DNA from: Rhodobacter maris
GTDB taxonomy: Bacteria > Pseudomonadota > Alphaproteobacteria > Rhodobacterales > Rhodobacteraceae
DNA: 64,000 nt
NCBI RefSeq assembly: GCF_900217815.1
Contig: NZ_OBMT01000004.1
Coordinates: forward strand, 62,001 to 126,000
Direction of reading: 5' to 3'
The position numbers and the translations under genes were made by a program. Positions 43,285 to 48,804 of the stretch are shown in pieces (within the stretch, counting starts at the first letter, position 1; every line of letters begins with the position of its first letter). The notes beneath the pieces were generated by a model. That model worked only from the letters and a program-made list of their open reading frames with translations, was not told where the DNA came from and did no database searches.

Positions 43285-44225
43285 TCGAAGCGGCGCCCCT
43301 GCATGACGAGATCGCGCGCGGCCCCGAGGGCGGCGTGGCTTTCTGGTTGCGCACCGCCGACCGGGTGCGGATCCGGTTTGGCCTGTGGCCGAAGGCGGGG
43401 GCGAAGGGTACGGTGTTCCTGCTGCCCGGGCGCACCGAATATGTCGAAAAATATGGCCCGGCGGCGGCCGCTTTCGCCCGGCGCGGCTATGCGATGCTGG
43501 CCGTGGACTGGCGCGGTCAGGGGCTCGCCGACCGCCCCGCCCATGACCCGATGCAGGGCGATGTCGTGGAGTTTGGCGATTATCAGCGCGATTTCGATGC
43601 GGTTCTGGCGGCGGCGACCGAGCTGGACCTGCCGCGCCCTTGGGTCATTCTCGGCCATTCGATGGGCGGTGCGATTGGCCTGCGCCGGGTGATGGAAGAG
43701 CACCCGTTTGCAGCTTGCGCCTTTTCCGCGCCGATGTGGGCGATTGGCTTGCCGCGGCTGATCCAGCCGATCGGCCCCTTCGTGGCGCGGATGCTGCGTA
43801 CGTCGCCGCTCGCCACCCATTACCCGCCCGGCTTCTCGCGCAAGAGCTATGTGCCGAGCGCGCCCTTTGCCGACAACAAGCTGACCACTGATGCCGAAAT
43901 GTGGGCCTTCATGCTCACCCATCTGCAGGCGGTGCCGGCGCTCGCGCTGGCCGGACCGAGCTATCGCTGGGTTTGCGAGGGCATCCTCGAATGCGCCGCG
44001 CTCGATGCGCTCCCCTCCCCCGATCTGCCCTGCTATTGCGCGCTGGGCGGCAATGAGCGGATCGTGGCAACCCATTGGGTGCATGAACGGATGAAGCGCT
44101 GGCCGAAGGGGCGGCTCGAGATTTTCGAGGGCGCCGAACACGAACTGATGATGGAGAGCCCGGCCCGGCAGGCCCGATTCTTCGATGCCTGCACCGCACT
44201 CTTCGACCGGGCCGGTTCTAGCTGA
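43281..44225 (+). CDS. Alpha/beta hydrolase (monoglyceride lipase / lysophospholipase type)
   Basis: A 314-residue alpha/beta-hydrolase. The nucleophile elbow is GHSMGG (Ser127), the oxyanion region is TVFLLPGRTEYVEKYGP followed by VDWRGQGLADRP, and the histidine is in GAEHELMMESPARQ. The pattern is that of the PldB-like Hydrolase_4 group. Coupling to an SCP2 lipid carrier suggests lysophospholipid or monoacylglycerol as substrate (inference). No signal peptide. The last 8 bases overlap the 3' end of the convergent Anbu gene. Confidence 0.9.
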   Translation: MIEAAPLHDEIARGPEGGVAFWLRTADRVRIRFGLWPKAGAKGTVFLLPGRTEYVEKYGPAAAAFARRGYAMLAVDWRGQGLADRPAHDPMQGDVVEFGDYQRDFDAVLAAATELDLPRPWVILGHSMGGAIGLRRVMEEHPFAACAFSAPMWAIGLPRLIQPIGPFVARMLRTSPLATHYPPGFSRKSYVPSAPFADNKLTTDAEMWAFMLTHLQAVPALALAGPSYRWVCEGILECAALDALPSPDLPCYCALGGNERIVATHWVHERMKRWPKGRLEIFEGAEHELMMESPARQARFFDACTALFDRAGSS

Positions 44226-44949
44226 TCAGCTCGATCCGGCCAAAACCATCGCGCAAGGCCTCTGACCAGGCCAGCGACATCGCGGCGAATTGCGGATCGT
44301 CCTTCTCGATGCGCCGCTTCAGCGTTACCTTGCAGTCGTCGCGCGCGATCACCGCAAGATCGAGCGGCATGCCGACCGAGAGGTTCGAGCGCAGGGTCGA
44401 ATCCATCGACAAAAGCACCGCCTTCTGCCCGTCTTCGAGCGTGGTCGCCATGCGCACCACGCGGTCGAGGATCGGTTTGCCGTATTTGTGCTCGCCAATC
44501 TGCAAAAACGGCGTGTCCTCCGTCGCCTCGATGAAATTCCCCTCGGGGTAAACGAGGAAAAGCCGCATCGTGCCGCCGCGGCGCTGGCCTGCCACGATCA
44601 TCGAGGCGGTGACCGAGACCTTCGAGGCATTCATCTTGTGGTCGATGTCCTGGCGCACCGAGGCGAGCGTGTTGCCGATGATCTCGGCCACGTTCAGCAT
44701 CGTCGGCGCCTGCATGATCGAGTCGTCTTCACTCGCCTCCGGATGCTCGATCGCCTCGCGCAGCCGCGCGATCGTCGTTTGCGTCACCGAGAGCGAGCCC
44801 GCGGTGAGGATGGTGATCACCCGCTCGCCCGGCTCCTCGAAGATGAACATCTTGCGATAGGTCGCAATATTGTCGAGCCCCGCATTGGTGCGGGTGTCAC
44901 TCAGCAGCACCATGCCTTCATCGAGCAGAAGGCCCACGCAATAGGTCAT
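44218..44949 (-). CDS. Anbu (proteasome-type peptidase, ancestral beta subunit)
   Basis: A 243-residue Ntn-hydrolase of the Anbu/BPH type, a self-compartmentalising relative of the 20S proteasome beta subunit. After removal of Met, Thr1 would be the nucleophile (MTYCVGLLLDEGMVLLSDTR). Asp17 and Lys32 of the classic Thr-Asp-Lys set are present (SDTRTN and YRKMF). Further family stretches are LTAGSLSVTQTTIARLREAI and LDRVVRMATTLEDGQKAVLL. It is the last gene of a four-gene operon (ATP-grasp, alpha-E, transglutaminase, Anbu), the arrangement known for Anbu systems. CAGGGAACGGTT precedes the ATG. Natural substrate unknown. Confidence 0.95.
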   Translation of the reverse strand: MTYCVGLLLDEGMVLLSDTRTNAGLDNIATYRKMFIFEEPGERVITILTAGSLSVTQTTIARLREAIEHPEASEDDSIMQAPTMLNVAEIIGNTLASVRQDIDHKMNASKVSVTASMIVAGQRRGGTMRLFLVYPEGNFIEATEDTPFLQIGEHKYGKPILDRVVRMATTLEDGQKAVLLSMDSTLRSNLSVGMPLDLAVIARDDCKVTLKRRIEKDDPQFAAMSLAWSEALRDGFGRIELIS

Positions 44950-44988
44950 AACCGTTCCCTGCCCCCCGGCACAGCACCGCCGCGCAGC

Positions 44989-45801
44989 CTATTGCTGCAC
45001 GGCTTCAAGCGCAACCGTCACATCGAGCCGCTCGGCTCCCTCGCCTTGCGCCACGCCCTTGATCGGCGCCGCCTCGCGCGCATCGAGCCCGGAGCCGAGC
45101 CGGATGAAGCGCGCATCGGGGCAGCACTGGTTGGCCGGGTCGAAACCGATCCAGCCGATGTTCTCGACCCAGATCTCGGCCCAGGCATGGGCCGCCTCAT
45201 GCGGCTCGCCGTCCTCGCGCGCGAAGAGATAGCCCGACACATAACGCGCCGGCATGCCGAGCACCCGCGCGCAGGCGATGAGCGCATGGGCATGGTCCTG
45301 ACAGACCCCCTCGCCCTGCGCCAGCGCCTCGGCCGCGGTAGTATGGGCGGTGGTGGTGCCGGGGCGATAGGCGATAGCCTCGGCCACAGCATTCGAAAGC
45401 CGGTGCGCGCGGTCGAGCGCATCTGTCGCCCCCTTGGCCGCTTTCTGCGCCAGATCGCGGATCTCGGCGCTTTGCCAGGTGGCGGTGGTCTCGCGCAGGT
45501 AGGCAAGCGGCGAGACGCTCTCGCGGTGGCCGCGCAGCACGCCCGCCGTGTCGGCGGTATCAACCTGCCCCGAAACCGAAATCGTCACCGCGCTCACCGG
45601 GCCGCGGATCGACCAGCCCTCGACCTTGTCGCCCGCCCCGTCGCGAAATGAGCCGCCGCGCGTACCGCCCTCCACCTCGACCGACCACTGGATCGTGCGC
45701 TGGCCGTCGAACCGTGAGGGAAAGAGCCGGAGCGATTGCACGGCAGCGCGCATCGGCGCGTCATATTCGTAAGTCGTGACGTGATTGACCGTCAGGATCA
45801 T
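44989..45801 (-). CDS. Transglutaminase-like cysteine peptidase family protein (Anbu operon)
   Basis: A 270-residue protein. A beta-rich N-terminal domain (MILTVNHVTTYEYDAPMRAA, LFPSRFDGQRTIQWSVEVEG) is followed by a transglutaminase-like papain fold with an intact triad: Cys167 in GEGVCQDHAHALI, His205 in EAAHAWAEIW and Asp221 in GWIGFDPANQCCPD. In this operon type it is thought to cleave or form amide bonds on peptides made by the ATP-grasp partner (published genome-context inference). The ATG overlaps the alpha-E stop (ATGA), and Anbu follows after 39 bases. Confidence 0.94.
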   Translation of the reverse strand: MILTVNHVTTYEYDAPMRAAVQSLRLFPSRFDGQRTIQWSVEVEGGTRGGSFRDGAGDKVEGWSIRGPVSAVTISVSGQVDTADTAGVLRGHRESVSPLAYLRETTATWQSAEIRDLAQKAAKGATDALDRAHRLSNAVAEAIAYRPGTTTAHTTAAEALAQGEGVCQDHAHALIACARVLGMPARYVSGYLFAREDGEPHEAAHAWAEIWVENIGWIGFDPANQCCPDARFIRLGSGLDAREAAPIKGVAQGEGAERLDVTVALEAVQQ

Positions 45802-46751
45802 CGCGCTTCTCCGCTCAGATACATGCCCTGCACCATGTCCGAAAGCTCGCCCACATCGCGAATGAAGCGGGTGAGAAACTCGTGCAGACCCTCGTCGAAA
45901 ATTTCCTCGACGCGGGTTTCGGCGATCTCGCCCACCAGCGCGCGGGCGCGCATCTGCGCGGGGCCGGATTTCTGATAGCCGCGCGCCAGCGCATCGAGAT
46001 GTTCCATCGCCATCGTCACGGCGGTCACGAGCGAGCGCGGCGATTGCGGATTGAGGATCAAAAAATGCGCGATCTTCGCCGCAGTGATGTCGCCGCCATA
46101 GGCCCAGTGGAAGGCGCGATGCGCCGAGAGCGCGCGCAAAAGCGTCTGCCACTGGTAATTGTCGAGCCCGGAGCCGACGAAATCGACCGAGGGCAGGAGC
46201 ACGAAATACTTCACGTCGATCAGCCGCGCGGTGTTGTCGGCGCGTTCGAGCGCGAAGCCGAGGTTGAGGAAGCTGTAGCCGTCGTTGCGCAAAAGCGTGG
46301 CGTCGATCGCGCCGCGCACCAGCGCGGCCTGGCGGTTCACCCATTCGGTGAGCTCGGTCACCTCAAGCTCCGAGCGCGGCATCCGCTCGAGCCGGCGCAT
46401 CTCCTGAAACGCGCCGTTGAGCGCATCCCAGACCTGCGAGGTCAGCGCCGTGCGCACGATCCGCGCGTTTTCGCGCGCGCGTTCAAGGCAGGAGACCACC
46501 GAAGAGGGGTTGTCGCGGTCAAAGAACAGATAGCTCTCGATATTGCGCTGCACCGGGTCGCCATATTTGGCCGAGAACCCCTCGGCGGTGCCCGAGGCTT
46601 GCAGGATGCTTTCCCACTCGCTGCGGTAGCCATGCCCGGCCGAGGGCATCAGCGCGATCCGCGCGCCCACTTCCAGCAGCCGCGCCATGGTTTCGGCGCG
46701 TTCGATGTAACGCGCAATCCAGAAAAGGTTTTCAGCGGTCCGGCTCAGCAT
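45798..46751 (-). CDS. Alpha-E domain protein (Anbu operon)
   Basis: A 317-residue, nearly all-helical alpha-E domain. It opens MLSRTAENLFWIARYIERAE and later shows LTEWVNRQAALVRGAIDATL and YSFLNLGFALERADNTARLI, with repeated ER..N/T motifs. The domain has no known activity but is almost always found beside or fused to the circularly permuted ATP-grasp protein, suggesting it handles the substrate or product. It is 4 bases after the ATP-grasp stop, and its own stop overlaps the transglutaminase start. Confidence 0.94.
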   Translation of the reverse strand: MLSRTAENLFWIARYIERAETMARLLEVGARIALMPSAGHGYRSEWESILQASGTAEGFSAKYGDPVQRNIESYLFFDRDNPSSVVSCLERARENARIVRTALTSQVWDALNGAFQEMRRLERMPRSELEVTELTEWVNRQAALVRGAIDATLLRNDGYSFLNLGFALERADNTARLIDVKYFVLLPSVDFVGSGLDNYQWQTLLRALSAHRAFHWAYGGDITAAKIAHFLILNPQSPRSLVTAVTMAMEHLDALARGYQKSGPAQMRARALVGEIAETRVEEIFDEGLHEFLTRFIRDVGELSDMVQGMYLSGEAR

Positions 46752-46755
46752 TTTG

Positions 46756-48168
46756 TCACTCCGCCAACACCCAGGTATCTTTCACGCCGCCCCCCTGCGA
46801 GGAGTTCACGACGAGCGATCCCTCCTTCAGCGCGACGCGGGTGAGCCCGCCCGGCACAAGCTCGATCTTCTCGCCCACAAGGCAATAGGGGCGCAAATCG
46901 ACATGCCGCGGCGCGATCCCTTCCTGCACGAAGGTGGGCGTGGTCGAAAGCGCAAGCGTCGGCTGGGCGATGTAATTCTCGGGATGGGCCGCAACCTTGG
47001 CGCGGAAGGCCTCGATCTGCTCGGTGGTCGATTTCGGCCCAACGAGCATGCCGTAGCCGCCAGAGCCATGCACTTCCTTCACCACCAGCTCTCCCATGTG
47101 CTCAAGCACATATTTGCAATCGTCCTCCTTGGCGCATTGCCAGGTGGGGACGTTGTTCAAAAGCGGCTCCTCGCCAAGGTAGAAGCGCACCATCTCCGGC
47201 ACGAAAGTATAGACCGCCTTGTCATCGGCCACCCCCGCGCCCGGCGCCGAACAGATGCTGACACCGCCCGAGCGGTAGACATCCATCAGCCCGGGAATGC
47301 CGAGCATGGAGTCGGGCCGGAAGCAGAGCGGATCAAGGAAGGCGTCGTCGATGCGGCGGTAGATCACGTCGAGCTTTTTCGGCCCTTCAGTGGTGCGCAT
47401 CCAGACAAACCCGCCCTCGACGAAAAGATCGGCGCCCTCGACCAGCTCCACCCCCATCAGATCGGCAAGGAAGCTGTGTTCGTAATAGGCGGAGTTGTAA
47501 TGGCCCGGCGTCAGGATACCGATATTGGGTTCGCGGTCGCATTTCGAGGGCGCGACCGAGGCGAGCGTGCGGCGCAGCGCATCCGCGTAACCATCGACCG
47601 GCTCGATCCGGTTTTCGCGGAAGAGCTGCGGGAACATCCGCATCATGATCTCGCGGTTTTCCAGCATGTAGCTGACGCCCGACGGCGTGCGGCAGTTGTC
47701 TTCGAGTACAAAAAACTCATCGGGCCCGGTGCGCACGATGTCGATGCCGACGATGTGGGAATAGATCCCGCGCGGCGGCGTGAAGCCCGTCACCGCGCGC
47801 TCGAACGCCTCGTTCTGGAACACGAGCCGCCCCGGGATCTTGCCCGCGCGCACGATCTCGGCACGGCCGTACACATCAAGCAGGAAGGCGTTCAATGCCC
47901 GCGCACGTTGCTTGATGCCACGCTCAAGCTTGCGCCATTCGGTTTGCGTGAAAACCCGCGGGAACATGTCGAAGGGGATCAGCCGGTCCGGGTCGCCGCC
48001 CTCGCCATAAACCGCGAAAGTGATGCCGATGCGGCGAAAAAGCGCCTCGGCTTCCGCCTGTTTCATCGCCCGCAATTCGGCGGGCATGGCCTTCGTCCAG
48101 TCCTCGAGCCGCCGGTAAGGCTCGCGGACTTTGCCGCCCTCATACATCTCGTTGAAATATTCCGTCAT
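46756..48168 (-). CDS. Circularly permuted ATP-grasp protein (Anbu operon)
   Basis: A 470-residue type 2 circularly permuted ATP-grasp enzyme, predicted to form carbon-nitrogen (peptide-like amide) bonds with ATP. Stretches typical of the family are RRIGITFAVYGEGGDPDRLI, GIDIVRTGPDEFFVLEDNCR then TPSGVSYMLENREIMMRMFP, GILTPGHYNSAYYEHSFLAD, and the nucleotide lysine and glycine-loop region LVVKEVHGSGGYGMLVGP. It is the first gene of the operon, with a GGAGG ribosome site 10 bases before the ATG. Proposed in the literature to make a peptide tag or small peptide that the other three gene products process; not proven. Confidence 0.94.
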   Translation of the reverse strand: MTEYFNEMYEGGKVREPYRRLEDWTKAMPAELRAMKQAEAEALFRRIGITFAVYGEGGDPDRLIPFDMFPRVFTQTEWRKLERGIKQRARALNAFLLDVYGRAEIVRAGKIPGRLVFQNEAFERAVTGFTPPRGIYSHIVGIDIVRTGPDEFFVLEDNCRTPSGVSYMLENREIMMRMFPQLFRENRIEPVDGYADALRRTLASVAPSKCDREPNIGILTPGHYNSAYYEHSFLADLMGVELVEGADLFVEGGFVWMRTTEGPKKLDVIYRRIDDAFLDPLCFRPDSMLGIPGLMDVYRSGGVSICSAPGAGVADDKAVYTFVPEMVRFYLGEEPLLNNVPTWQCAKEDDCKYVLEHMGELVVKEVHGSGGYGMLVGPKSTTEQIEAFRAKVAAHPENYIAQPTLALSTTPTFVQEGIAPRHVDLRPYCLVGEKIELVPGGLTRVALKEGSLVVNSSQGGGVKDTWVLAE

Positions 48169-48195: not shown

Positions 48196-48224
48196 ATCCT
48201 AGGCAGCGGTCGGGCGGAGCGGAA
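48196..48224 (-). promoter_or_regulatory. Possible promoter of the Anbu operon
   Basis: On the minus strand TTCCGC (48224-48219), 17 bases and TAGGAT (48201-48196) lie 28 bases before the ATP-grasp start codon. The -35 is poor, so a helper factor such as CarD may be needed. Confidence 0.3.
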
Positions 48225-48308
48225 GGTGAGCCGCACCCATTCTCGCGGGGAAGTTGTGCGTGGCGCTCAATTTCCGCCTTTCCGCCTAAATTTCAGGCAT
48301 TCGCGCCG

Positions 48309-48746
48309 TCATTTTCCCAGGCGCCCGATTACACGCGCCATCAGATCGAGAAAAAGCGCCTGTTCCTCCGGCGTGAGCCCGGCGAGTGCCCTCGCATTGA
48401 CCGCCTGCGCGGCTTCCGTGGCCAGCGCTTCGAGCGCGCGGGCGCGTTCCGTCAGATGCAGGGTCTGGGCGCGCTTGTCGCTGGGATGCGGGCGGCGTTC
48501 GATCAGCCCGTCGCGCTCCATCCGCCCCAGCGTGCCCGCCATCGTCGCCTGTTCCACCGCAAGTCGCGCGACGAGGGCGGCCTGGGTCTGGCCCTCCTCG
48601 GCCCAAAGCTCCAGCAGCGTCATGAATTGCGCGGGCGTGAGCCCCAAGGGCCGGATCGCCGCCGCGAGCCGGTTCTCAAAAAGCCGCGCCATCATGTTGG
48701 CCAGAAACCCGGCGGAACTGGCCTTGTCGAAAGATGCGATGTCCAT
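48309..48746 (-). CDS. MarR family transcriptional regulator
   Basis: A 145-residue winged-helix dimeric regulator: LTPAQFMTLLELWAEEGQTQ, ALVARLAVEQATMAGTLGRM, then ERDGLIERRPHPSDKRAQTL with the wing arginines and the DKR signature. I start at ATG 48746 (MDIASFDKASSAGF). The ATG 30 bases upstream has no ribosome site and would place the operator palindrome inside the gene. It is divergent from a small membrane-protein gene. The two palindromes between them (48762-48804) are the probable operators, implying autorepression and control of the neighbour. Confidence 0.92.
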   Translation of the reverse strand: MDIASFDKASSAGFLANMMARLFENRLAAAIRPLGLTPAQFMTLLELWAEEGQTQAALVARLAVEQATMAGTLGRMERDGLIERRPHPSDKRAQTLHLTERARALEALATEAAQAVNARALAGLTPEEQALFLDLMARVIGRLGK

Positions 48747-48761
48747 GACCCGGAATAGCAT

Positions 48762-48804
48762 TTGCATAGCATGCAATTCAATTTCATATTACATAGCATG
48801 CTAT
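48762..48804. promoter_or_regulatory. Twin palindromic operators between marR-type gene and membrane gene
   Basis: TTGCATAGCATGCAA (48762-48776, 6-bp arms) and ATAGCATGCTAT (48793-48804, perfect 12-bp palindrome) share the core ATAGCATGC and sit in an AT-rich island. Their centres are about 30 bases (three helical turns) apart. They are well placed to bind a MarR dimer at both divergent promoters. Confidence 0.7.

Follow-up and report, generated by a model that had tools for sequence, protein, structure and literature searches.

The minus strand of a 64,000-nucleotide stretch of Rhodobacter maris DNA (contig NZ_OBMT01000004.1, positions 62,001 to 126,000; here called the window) carries at 44218-48168 the genes for a circularly permuted ATP-grasp protein, an alpha-E protein, a transglutaminase-like protein (TG) and the proteasome relative Anbu, in that order, and this set reads as one unit. 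It is the already described Anbu operon, in an ordinary member, for which the parts available to us of the published studies (PMC5666114, PMC6376114, PMC5343134) give no substrate or confirmed function; in these sources Anbu was inactive on standard proteasome substrates (PMC5666114, PMC6376114), and for an ATP-grasp orthologue only phosphate release was shown (PMC6376114). We report that the TG of this operon ends in a conserved and apparently relocatable glutamine tail, a concrete candidate for the substrate or binding partner of the ligase. We also report that the four genes very probably form a single unit which NtrC induces via a sigma70-type promoter when nitrogen is limiting, as judged from the NtrC-type site, its conservation, the NtrC of the genome and published data on orthologues.

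A glutamine tail on the transglutaminase-like protein

Aligned TGs of the operon repeatedly end in glutamine. With the tail defined as two or more Gln among the final eight residues, it was found in 149 of the 179 TGs encoded behind a stand-alone alpha-E protein, the final residue being Gln in 135 of them; without the 20 loci of the genus and near genera, 129 of 159 have the tail and 115 the final Gln. The sample consisted of complete frames of 200-700 aa lying directly behind a stand-alone alpha-E gene in the fetched loci, binned by profiles. As a control, 1098 other long, non-overlapping open reading frames (ORFs) of these loci, called mechanically and not all of them real genes, gave 27 tails and 29 final Gln residues. 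The other operon proteins gave 8 tails and 2 final Gln (171 Anbu), 7 and 3 (218 ATP-grasp) and 18 and 17 (220 alpha-E), and the mean Gln content of the TG bodies is 3.4%.

The tail sequence varies yet stays Gln-rich (QQ, QSQSQ, QQQQ), its Gln codons show synonymous changes, and it is followed by TAG, TAA or TGA. Such a tail might be incidental, for example a solubility tail or a product of stop-codon drift, in an operon whose role is the synthesis and breakdown of a small peptide-like metabolite, or of a tag placed on unrelated proteins, in line with the 2009 prediction cited in PMC5666114 and PMC6376114. CAG and CAA are one base away from TAG and TAA, the stops that many tails precede, and drift between them may add to the tail, yet it leaves the contrast with other genes unexplained; against an incidental tail speak also its frequency far over background, its confinement to one protein class, the variation of its codons and the 12 of 99 QQ tails that precede TGA, and we regard this explanation as unlikely. 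No mention of the tail was found in a literature search including the accessible parts of PMC5666114, PMC6376114 and PMC5343134; the 2009 prediction paper and the supplements were outside its scope, and an earlier mention there is possible.

What the tail goes with

The presence of the tail corresponds to the state of the ATP-grasp encoded beside the TG. Where the ATP-grasp keeps E156, N158 and K364, the tail is found in 147 of 175 cases, and where all three are lost, in none of 22; the roles of these residues in the nucleotide site were assigned from conservation and by analogy with ATP-grasp enzymes rather than read from a bound structure. Among three partial ATP-grasps the tail is present twice, both positives being ATP-grasps cut by contig ends, and the third case (L068), the one stand-alone operon with Anbu, a damaged ATP-grasp and an intact TG triad, has no tail.

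The tail follows neither TG catalysis nor Anbu, because it is retained by 7 of the 12 TGs without the catalytic Cys (12 of the 179 operon TGs: L073, L185, L186, L195, L196, L200, L206, L220, L225, L259, L276 and L296) and likewise in 7 of the 12 genomes with a TG but no Anbu. TG catalysis thus seems to be dispensable in several lineages, and a first reading based on three operons, that a TG losing its Cys also loses its tail, is ruled out by the same Cys-less proteins. These counts bear on two further explanations. The tail could be a Gln acyl donor for the TG itself, in self-transamidation or in a deamidation releasing ammonia, since transglutaminases use Gln side chains and ammonia release would fit nitrogen control; the Cys-less TGs keeping their tail, and the intact-triad TGs that have none beside dead ATP-grasps, make this improbable. 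The tail could also dock on the Anbu ring and open or feed it, in the manner of the activator tails of the proteasome and HslV, and a groove on Anbu could accept it (PMC6376114), but the tail is kept in genomes lacking Anbu and we give this proposal very little credence.

A strict tail pattern occurs on the TG in 120 of 218 operons. The same pattern is found on the ATP-grasp in none of these 120 versus 6 of the remaining 98 (p 0.0076), and on the alpha-E protein in 1 of 120 versus 6 of 98 (p 0.047), neither value being corrected for kinship. In Falsiroseomonas (L185), Siculibacillus (L186) and Chthonobacter (L196) the TG has neither Cys nor tail and the ATP-grasp ends Gln-rich, while the alpha-E protein of Azospirillum ends in MTQSQSQ.

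The genome of the window holds a second locus (G000:C25, about 161500-164000; L002, L075), in which a fused ATP-grasp/alpha-E protein precedes a TG; a large TG is encoded close by, and Anbu is lacking. This fused paralog is predicted to be a pseudoenzyme. Among 19 fused relatives E156 is replaced by Gly in 17 and N158 by Arg in 18, at positions which are at least 95% conserved in 39 stand-alone ATP-grasps, whereas R88, D98, R146, N171, R172, Y228 and R271 are kept in all 19; not one of E156, N158 and K364 survives in any of 23 fused proteins. A search of viral contigs with the fused paralog as query gave no match. A dead ATP-grasp paralog would provide a natural negative control within the same genome.

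A possible substrate or docking peptide

The core of the operon is a predicted amide ligase formed by the ATP-grasp and alpha-E proteins. We propose that the substrate of this ligase is carried by a protein, being the glutamine tail at the C-terminus of the TG, and that in some lineages the ATP-grasp or the alpha-E protein would carry the substrate tail instead. The ligase would activate the alpha-carboxylate of the tail, or a gamma-carboxylate left by deamidation of Gln, as an acyl phosphate, and the activated tail would be joined to an amine; the TG site could deamidate or transamidate the tail or the product, and the amide would be hydrolysed by Anbu in operons that have it, so that the overall logic would be like that of the Pup system, from unrelated parts. 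Every chemical step here we infer, and the claim that the ligase modifies the tail is put forward tentatively. The complete cycle, in which the operon carries its own substrate as a Gln tail (on the TG, sometimes on the ATP-grasp, alpha-E protein or large TG) that the ligase would covalently extend or conjugate when nitrogen is limiting and Anbu would trim back in a Pup-like manner, is more doubtful.

The tail could, alternatively, be a docking or assembly peptide holding the TG to the ATP-grasp/alpha-E pair and staying itself unchanged, the substrate being another protein or a small molecule. We rate this as equally likely as a modification of the tail by the ligase, each being a serious possibility below even chances. 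In favour of docking, the tail varies while staying Gln-rich, as a binding motif might, its presence goes with the ATP-grasp and not with TG catalysis or Anbu, and it can sit on the ATP-grasp or alpha-E protein when the TG has none; however, a tail on the ATP-grasp itself, as in six operons, would bind its own protein, and pull-downs gave no stable complex, though the TG used in them carried a C-terminal FLAG tag (PMC6376114). Such a tag would mask the free tail, which suggests why pull-downs with TG tagged at this end may have missed it.

Several observations weigh against the tail being the substrate of the ligase. On the TG tree (FastTree, 176 rows, genus thinned) the live or dead state of the ATP-grasp changes twice and the tail state 20 times, and independent pairs are not numerous enough for testing. 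The 30 of 179 TGs without the tail lie mostly outside Alphaproteobacteria: in the phylum sample, for which 110 loci were read (30 given and 80 taken from the head of a longer set) and 80 gave a usable TG, the tail is present in 47 of 52 alphaproteobacterial TGs and in 15 of 28 others. The operons of Deinococcus deserti and Paenibacillus cellulosilyticus, the only two stand-alone TG operons read outside Proteobacteria, are without it, and 86 of the 98 operons lacking a strict TG tail have none on the ATP-grasp or alpha-E protein either. Free glutamine or glutamate did not make the Y. bercovieri ATP-grasp release more phosphate (PMC6376114).

Probable nitrogen control and the promoter

An NtrC-type palindrome lies 90 bp above the -10 element of the operon, in a 17-bp block with the consensus TGCCTAAAATTTAGGCA, as seen when the sequences upstream of 20 operons are aligned (17 from the genus and 3 from near genera; the genus member G012, on a short contig, was left out). 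A sequence-only reading of the window had placed a weak promoter at 48196-48224, and this place does fall on a block conserved in the 20 regions. Its suggestion that the promoter may need CarD finds no support: CarD matters where the final T of the -10 element is missing, and the hexamer TAGGAT ends in T, likewise in 18 of 20 relatives, so CarD dependence was dropped. The same reading had missed the NtrC-type site beside the promoter, the glutamine tail and the published nitrogen induction of an orthologous operon.

In Paracoccus denitrificans an NtrC-assigned site was reported at nasT, mutation of which abolished induction (PMC5424462), and the palindrome of the window agrees with it at 10 of 11 fixed positions. 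As a test the P. denitrificans consensus is weak: 19 of the 20 operon upstream regions reach 9 of 11 positions, but 30% of shuffles do so too, and on P-II genes it performed no better (five P-II loci were read on the wrong strand in that scan). We therefore used a symmetric matrix made from the operon sites alone, counting as a match p <= 0.05 versus dinucleotide shuffles. The 20 training operons all match at this threshold when left out one by one, a biased figure that is not counted as proof. Matches were found before glnB in 11 of 13 and before glnK in 8 of 8 loci (19 of 21 together), the glnB of the own genome (L107) being one of the two misses (p 0.124) and its glnK having a strict site. 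Other ATP-grasp operons match in 7 of 17 cases, fused-paralog loci in 1 of 16, further Rhodobacteraceae-like loci (L141-L170) in 22 of 26 and the other loci scanned with them in 18 of 41; one of the 22 (L152) has its match at the -10 and not in the usual place. As the sequences are related, all these matrix counts overstate the evidence.

A strict form of the NtrC-type pattern occurs at six places genome-wide, versus two in a backward control, and these are glnK-amtB, the Anbu operon, a purine-type ABC transporter by xdhC-like genes and three others, the names being taken from ORF reading. Strict sites at L138 1501 and L140 1501 (G000:C56) stand before a PhoH-like gene and the purine-type ABC transporter beside the xdhC-like genes.

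The NtrC of this genome, encoded behind ntrB, is without GAFTGA, as reported for NtrC of Rhodobacterales, and R. capsulatus NtrC works with sigma70 (PMC10274813). The orthologous operon PP_2685-2688 of P. putida is reported to be induced by nitrogen limitation, likely under NtrB/NtrC, its Anbu gene itself rising little in the wild type (1.12-fold; PMC7801951), and the BCAM1233-1236 module of B. cenocepacia depends on NtrC (PMC5491218). Control by NtrC with sigma70 is judged likely from the site, its conservation, the GAFTGA-less NtrC and the published data on orthologues, and the NtrC-type site indicates when the operon would act, namely in nitrogen-starved Rhodobacteraceae. A literature search covering the accessible main texts, with the supplements and the 2009 prediction paper excluded, revealed no mention of the Anbu operon within a Rhodobacteraceae NtrC regulon.

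Genes, families and distribution

The coordinates are collected in Table 1. The ATP-grasp and alpha-E genes are separated by a 4-nt gap, the alpha-E and TG genes overlap by 4 nt, and a 39-nt gap lies between TG and Anbu. The sequence-only reading had recognised the four genes in order with overlaps or small gaps, which the ORF coordinates, Pfam profiles and solved relatives bear out; it was equally right on the intact catalytic residues of Anbu, TG and the glycine loop of the ATP-grasp, and it cited correctly the published prediction of an amide-ligase/peptidase system (PMC5666114, PMC6376114), while the peptide-tagging and proteolysis roles that it named are still predictions.

Table 1. Features of the Anbu operon and its upstream region (positions in the window)
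Feature	Position	Strand	Basis
Circularly permuted ATP-grasp (amide-ligase type), 470 aa	46756..48168	-	CP_ATPgrasp_2 3e-164; E156, N158, K364 and glycine loop kept
Alpha-E protein, 317 aa	45798..46751	-	Pfam Alpha-E (PF04168) 1.5e-91; all-helical model; two ER motifs, E17-R18 and E169-R170
TG, 270 aa	44989..45801	-	Transglut_core 2.8e-26 and Bact_transglu_N 9.6e-17; triad C167/H205/D221
CAG CAA codons of the C-terminal glutamine tail (...AVQQ, then stop)	44992..44997	-	TG sequence
Anbu proteasome relative, 243 aa	44218..44949	-	Pfam Proteasome 2e-7; Thr1/Asp17/Lys32
Core promoter: CTTCCGCT (48225-48218) and TAGGAT (48201-48196)	48196..48225	-	Conserved in 20 aligned upstream regions
NtrC-type palindrome TGCCTGAAATTTAGGCG, 17 bp	48283..48299	.	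Aligned upstream regions of 20 operons

Anbu matches the solved structures 5loy (3.4e-77) and 5nyj (3.3e-72) by sequence, and its Thr1, Asp17 and Lys32 (T2, D18 and K33 of the ORF, Thr1 standing behind Met) do not vary among the 20 aligned Anbu proteins; its S1-pocket residues are near the Anbu-1 type of PMC5666114, two mild changes apart. The triad of the TG lies within Transglut_core, and activity is predicted. For the ATP-grasp the nearest solved relative is 3n6x (7.2e-188). A sequence search found no solved relative of the alpha-E protein; its AlphaFold2 model is confident (pLDDT 88.9), and structure matches to it were no better than chance for helical bundles. The conserved alpha-E residues cluster in the two ER motifs, which suggests an internal repeat. 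An NCBIfam search gave nothing above the cut-offs. Within the operon, to which the search for them was confined, no Pup, PafA/Dop-type ligase or AAA+ ATPase was found, the four proteins matching other families. Directly upstream, on the same strand, lies a MarR-like regulator gene (48309-48776, from ORF reading); the upstream genes vary among relatives.

All 20 fetched operons, of which 17 come from the genus and 3 from near genera, keep the gene order. So do about 63 of the 80 named genome loci, a figure that includes loci where the ORF caller produced overlap artefacts; these loci are the best 80 of at least 594 confirmed candidates found through Anbu. Of the remainder of the 80, seven have Anbu alone and the others are cut, without TG or rearranged. 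The nearest named relatives among the fetched loci belong to Rhodobacteraceae, records very near the own genome possibly being excluded. In a set of 61 genomes, made up of that of the window and 60 relatives, Anbu is present in 37 and alpha-E in 41, all 37 Anbu genomes also having alpha-E, and Anbu occurs in all 18 genomes of the genus; in the phylum sample alpha-E was found in 212 of 398 genomes. The genome of the window (3.83 Mb) has one Anbu and two ATP-grasp/alpha-E loci.

Some loci depart from this arrangement. Pseudotabrizicola and a relative have an extra gene of about 210-275 aa between TG and Anbu (L153 8279-8908, L156 8081-8908, L179 8142-8906). A locus of Nitrosomonadales (L216 2039-9651) has two Anbu genes and, behind the second, a large TG of about 1140 aa ending in MQQQ. 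In L056 and L057 (G025, G032) there is no TG between alpha-E and Anbu, and a divergent TG-like gene lies upstream; the alpha-E protein of L057 ends in QSQSQSAS.

Comparison with known systems

In the Pup-proteasome system a C-terminal Gln/Glu, an ATP-dependent ligation and a proteasome relative come together, and the likeness to the Anbu operon is one of logic only: Pup and PafA/Dop are absent from the operon, and ligase and carrier are unrelated. The RimK/RimB and Rlo operons also pair an ATP-grasp with a protease, and RimK adds glutamate to a protein C-terminus (PMC12239564), but their ATP-grasp is of another class, their proteases are aspartic, their targets are different and alpha-E is lacking. 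Glutathionylspermidine synthetase is the name under which 3n6x, the nearest solved relative of the ATP-grasp, was deposited, and it is a deposit label.

Closest is the Anbu operon described in Pseudomonas, Yersinia and Hyphomicrobium (PMC5666114, PMC6376114), which in the accessible descriptions has the same four families, order and catalytic residues and, bar the two mild changes, the Anbu-1 S1 pocket. Compared with it as published there, the operon of the window adds the NtrC-type site, the sigma70-like promoter, the GAFTGA-less NtrC and the glutamine tail of the TG. Orthologous or related modules under reported nitrogen control are those of P. putida (PMC7801951) and B. cenocepacia (PMC5491218); the latter differs in that its NtrC acts with sigma54, in its large TG, and in having no Anbu in the rows of that source seen by us.

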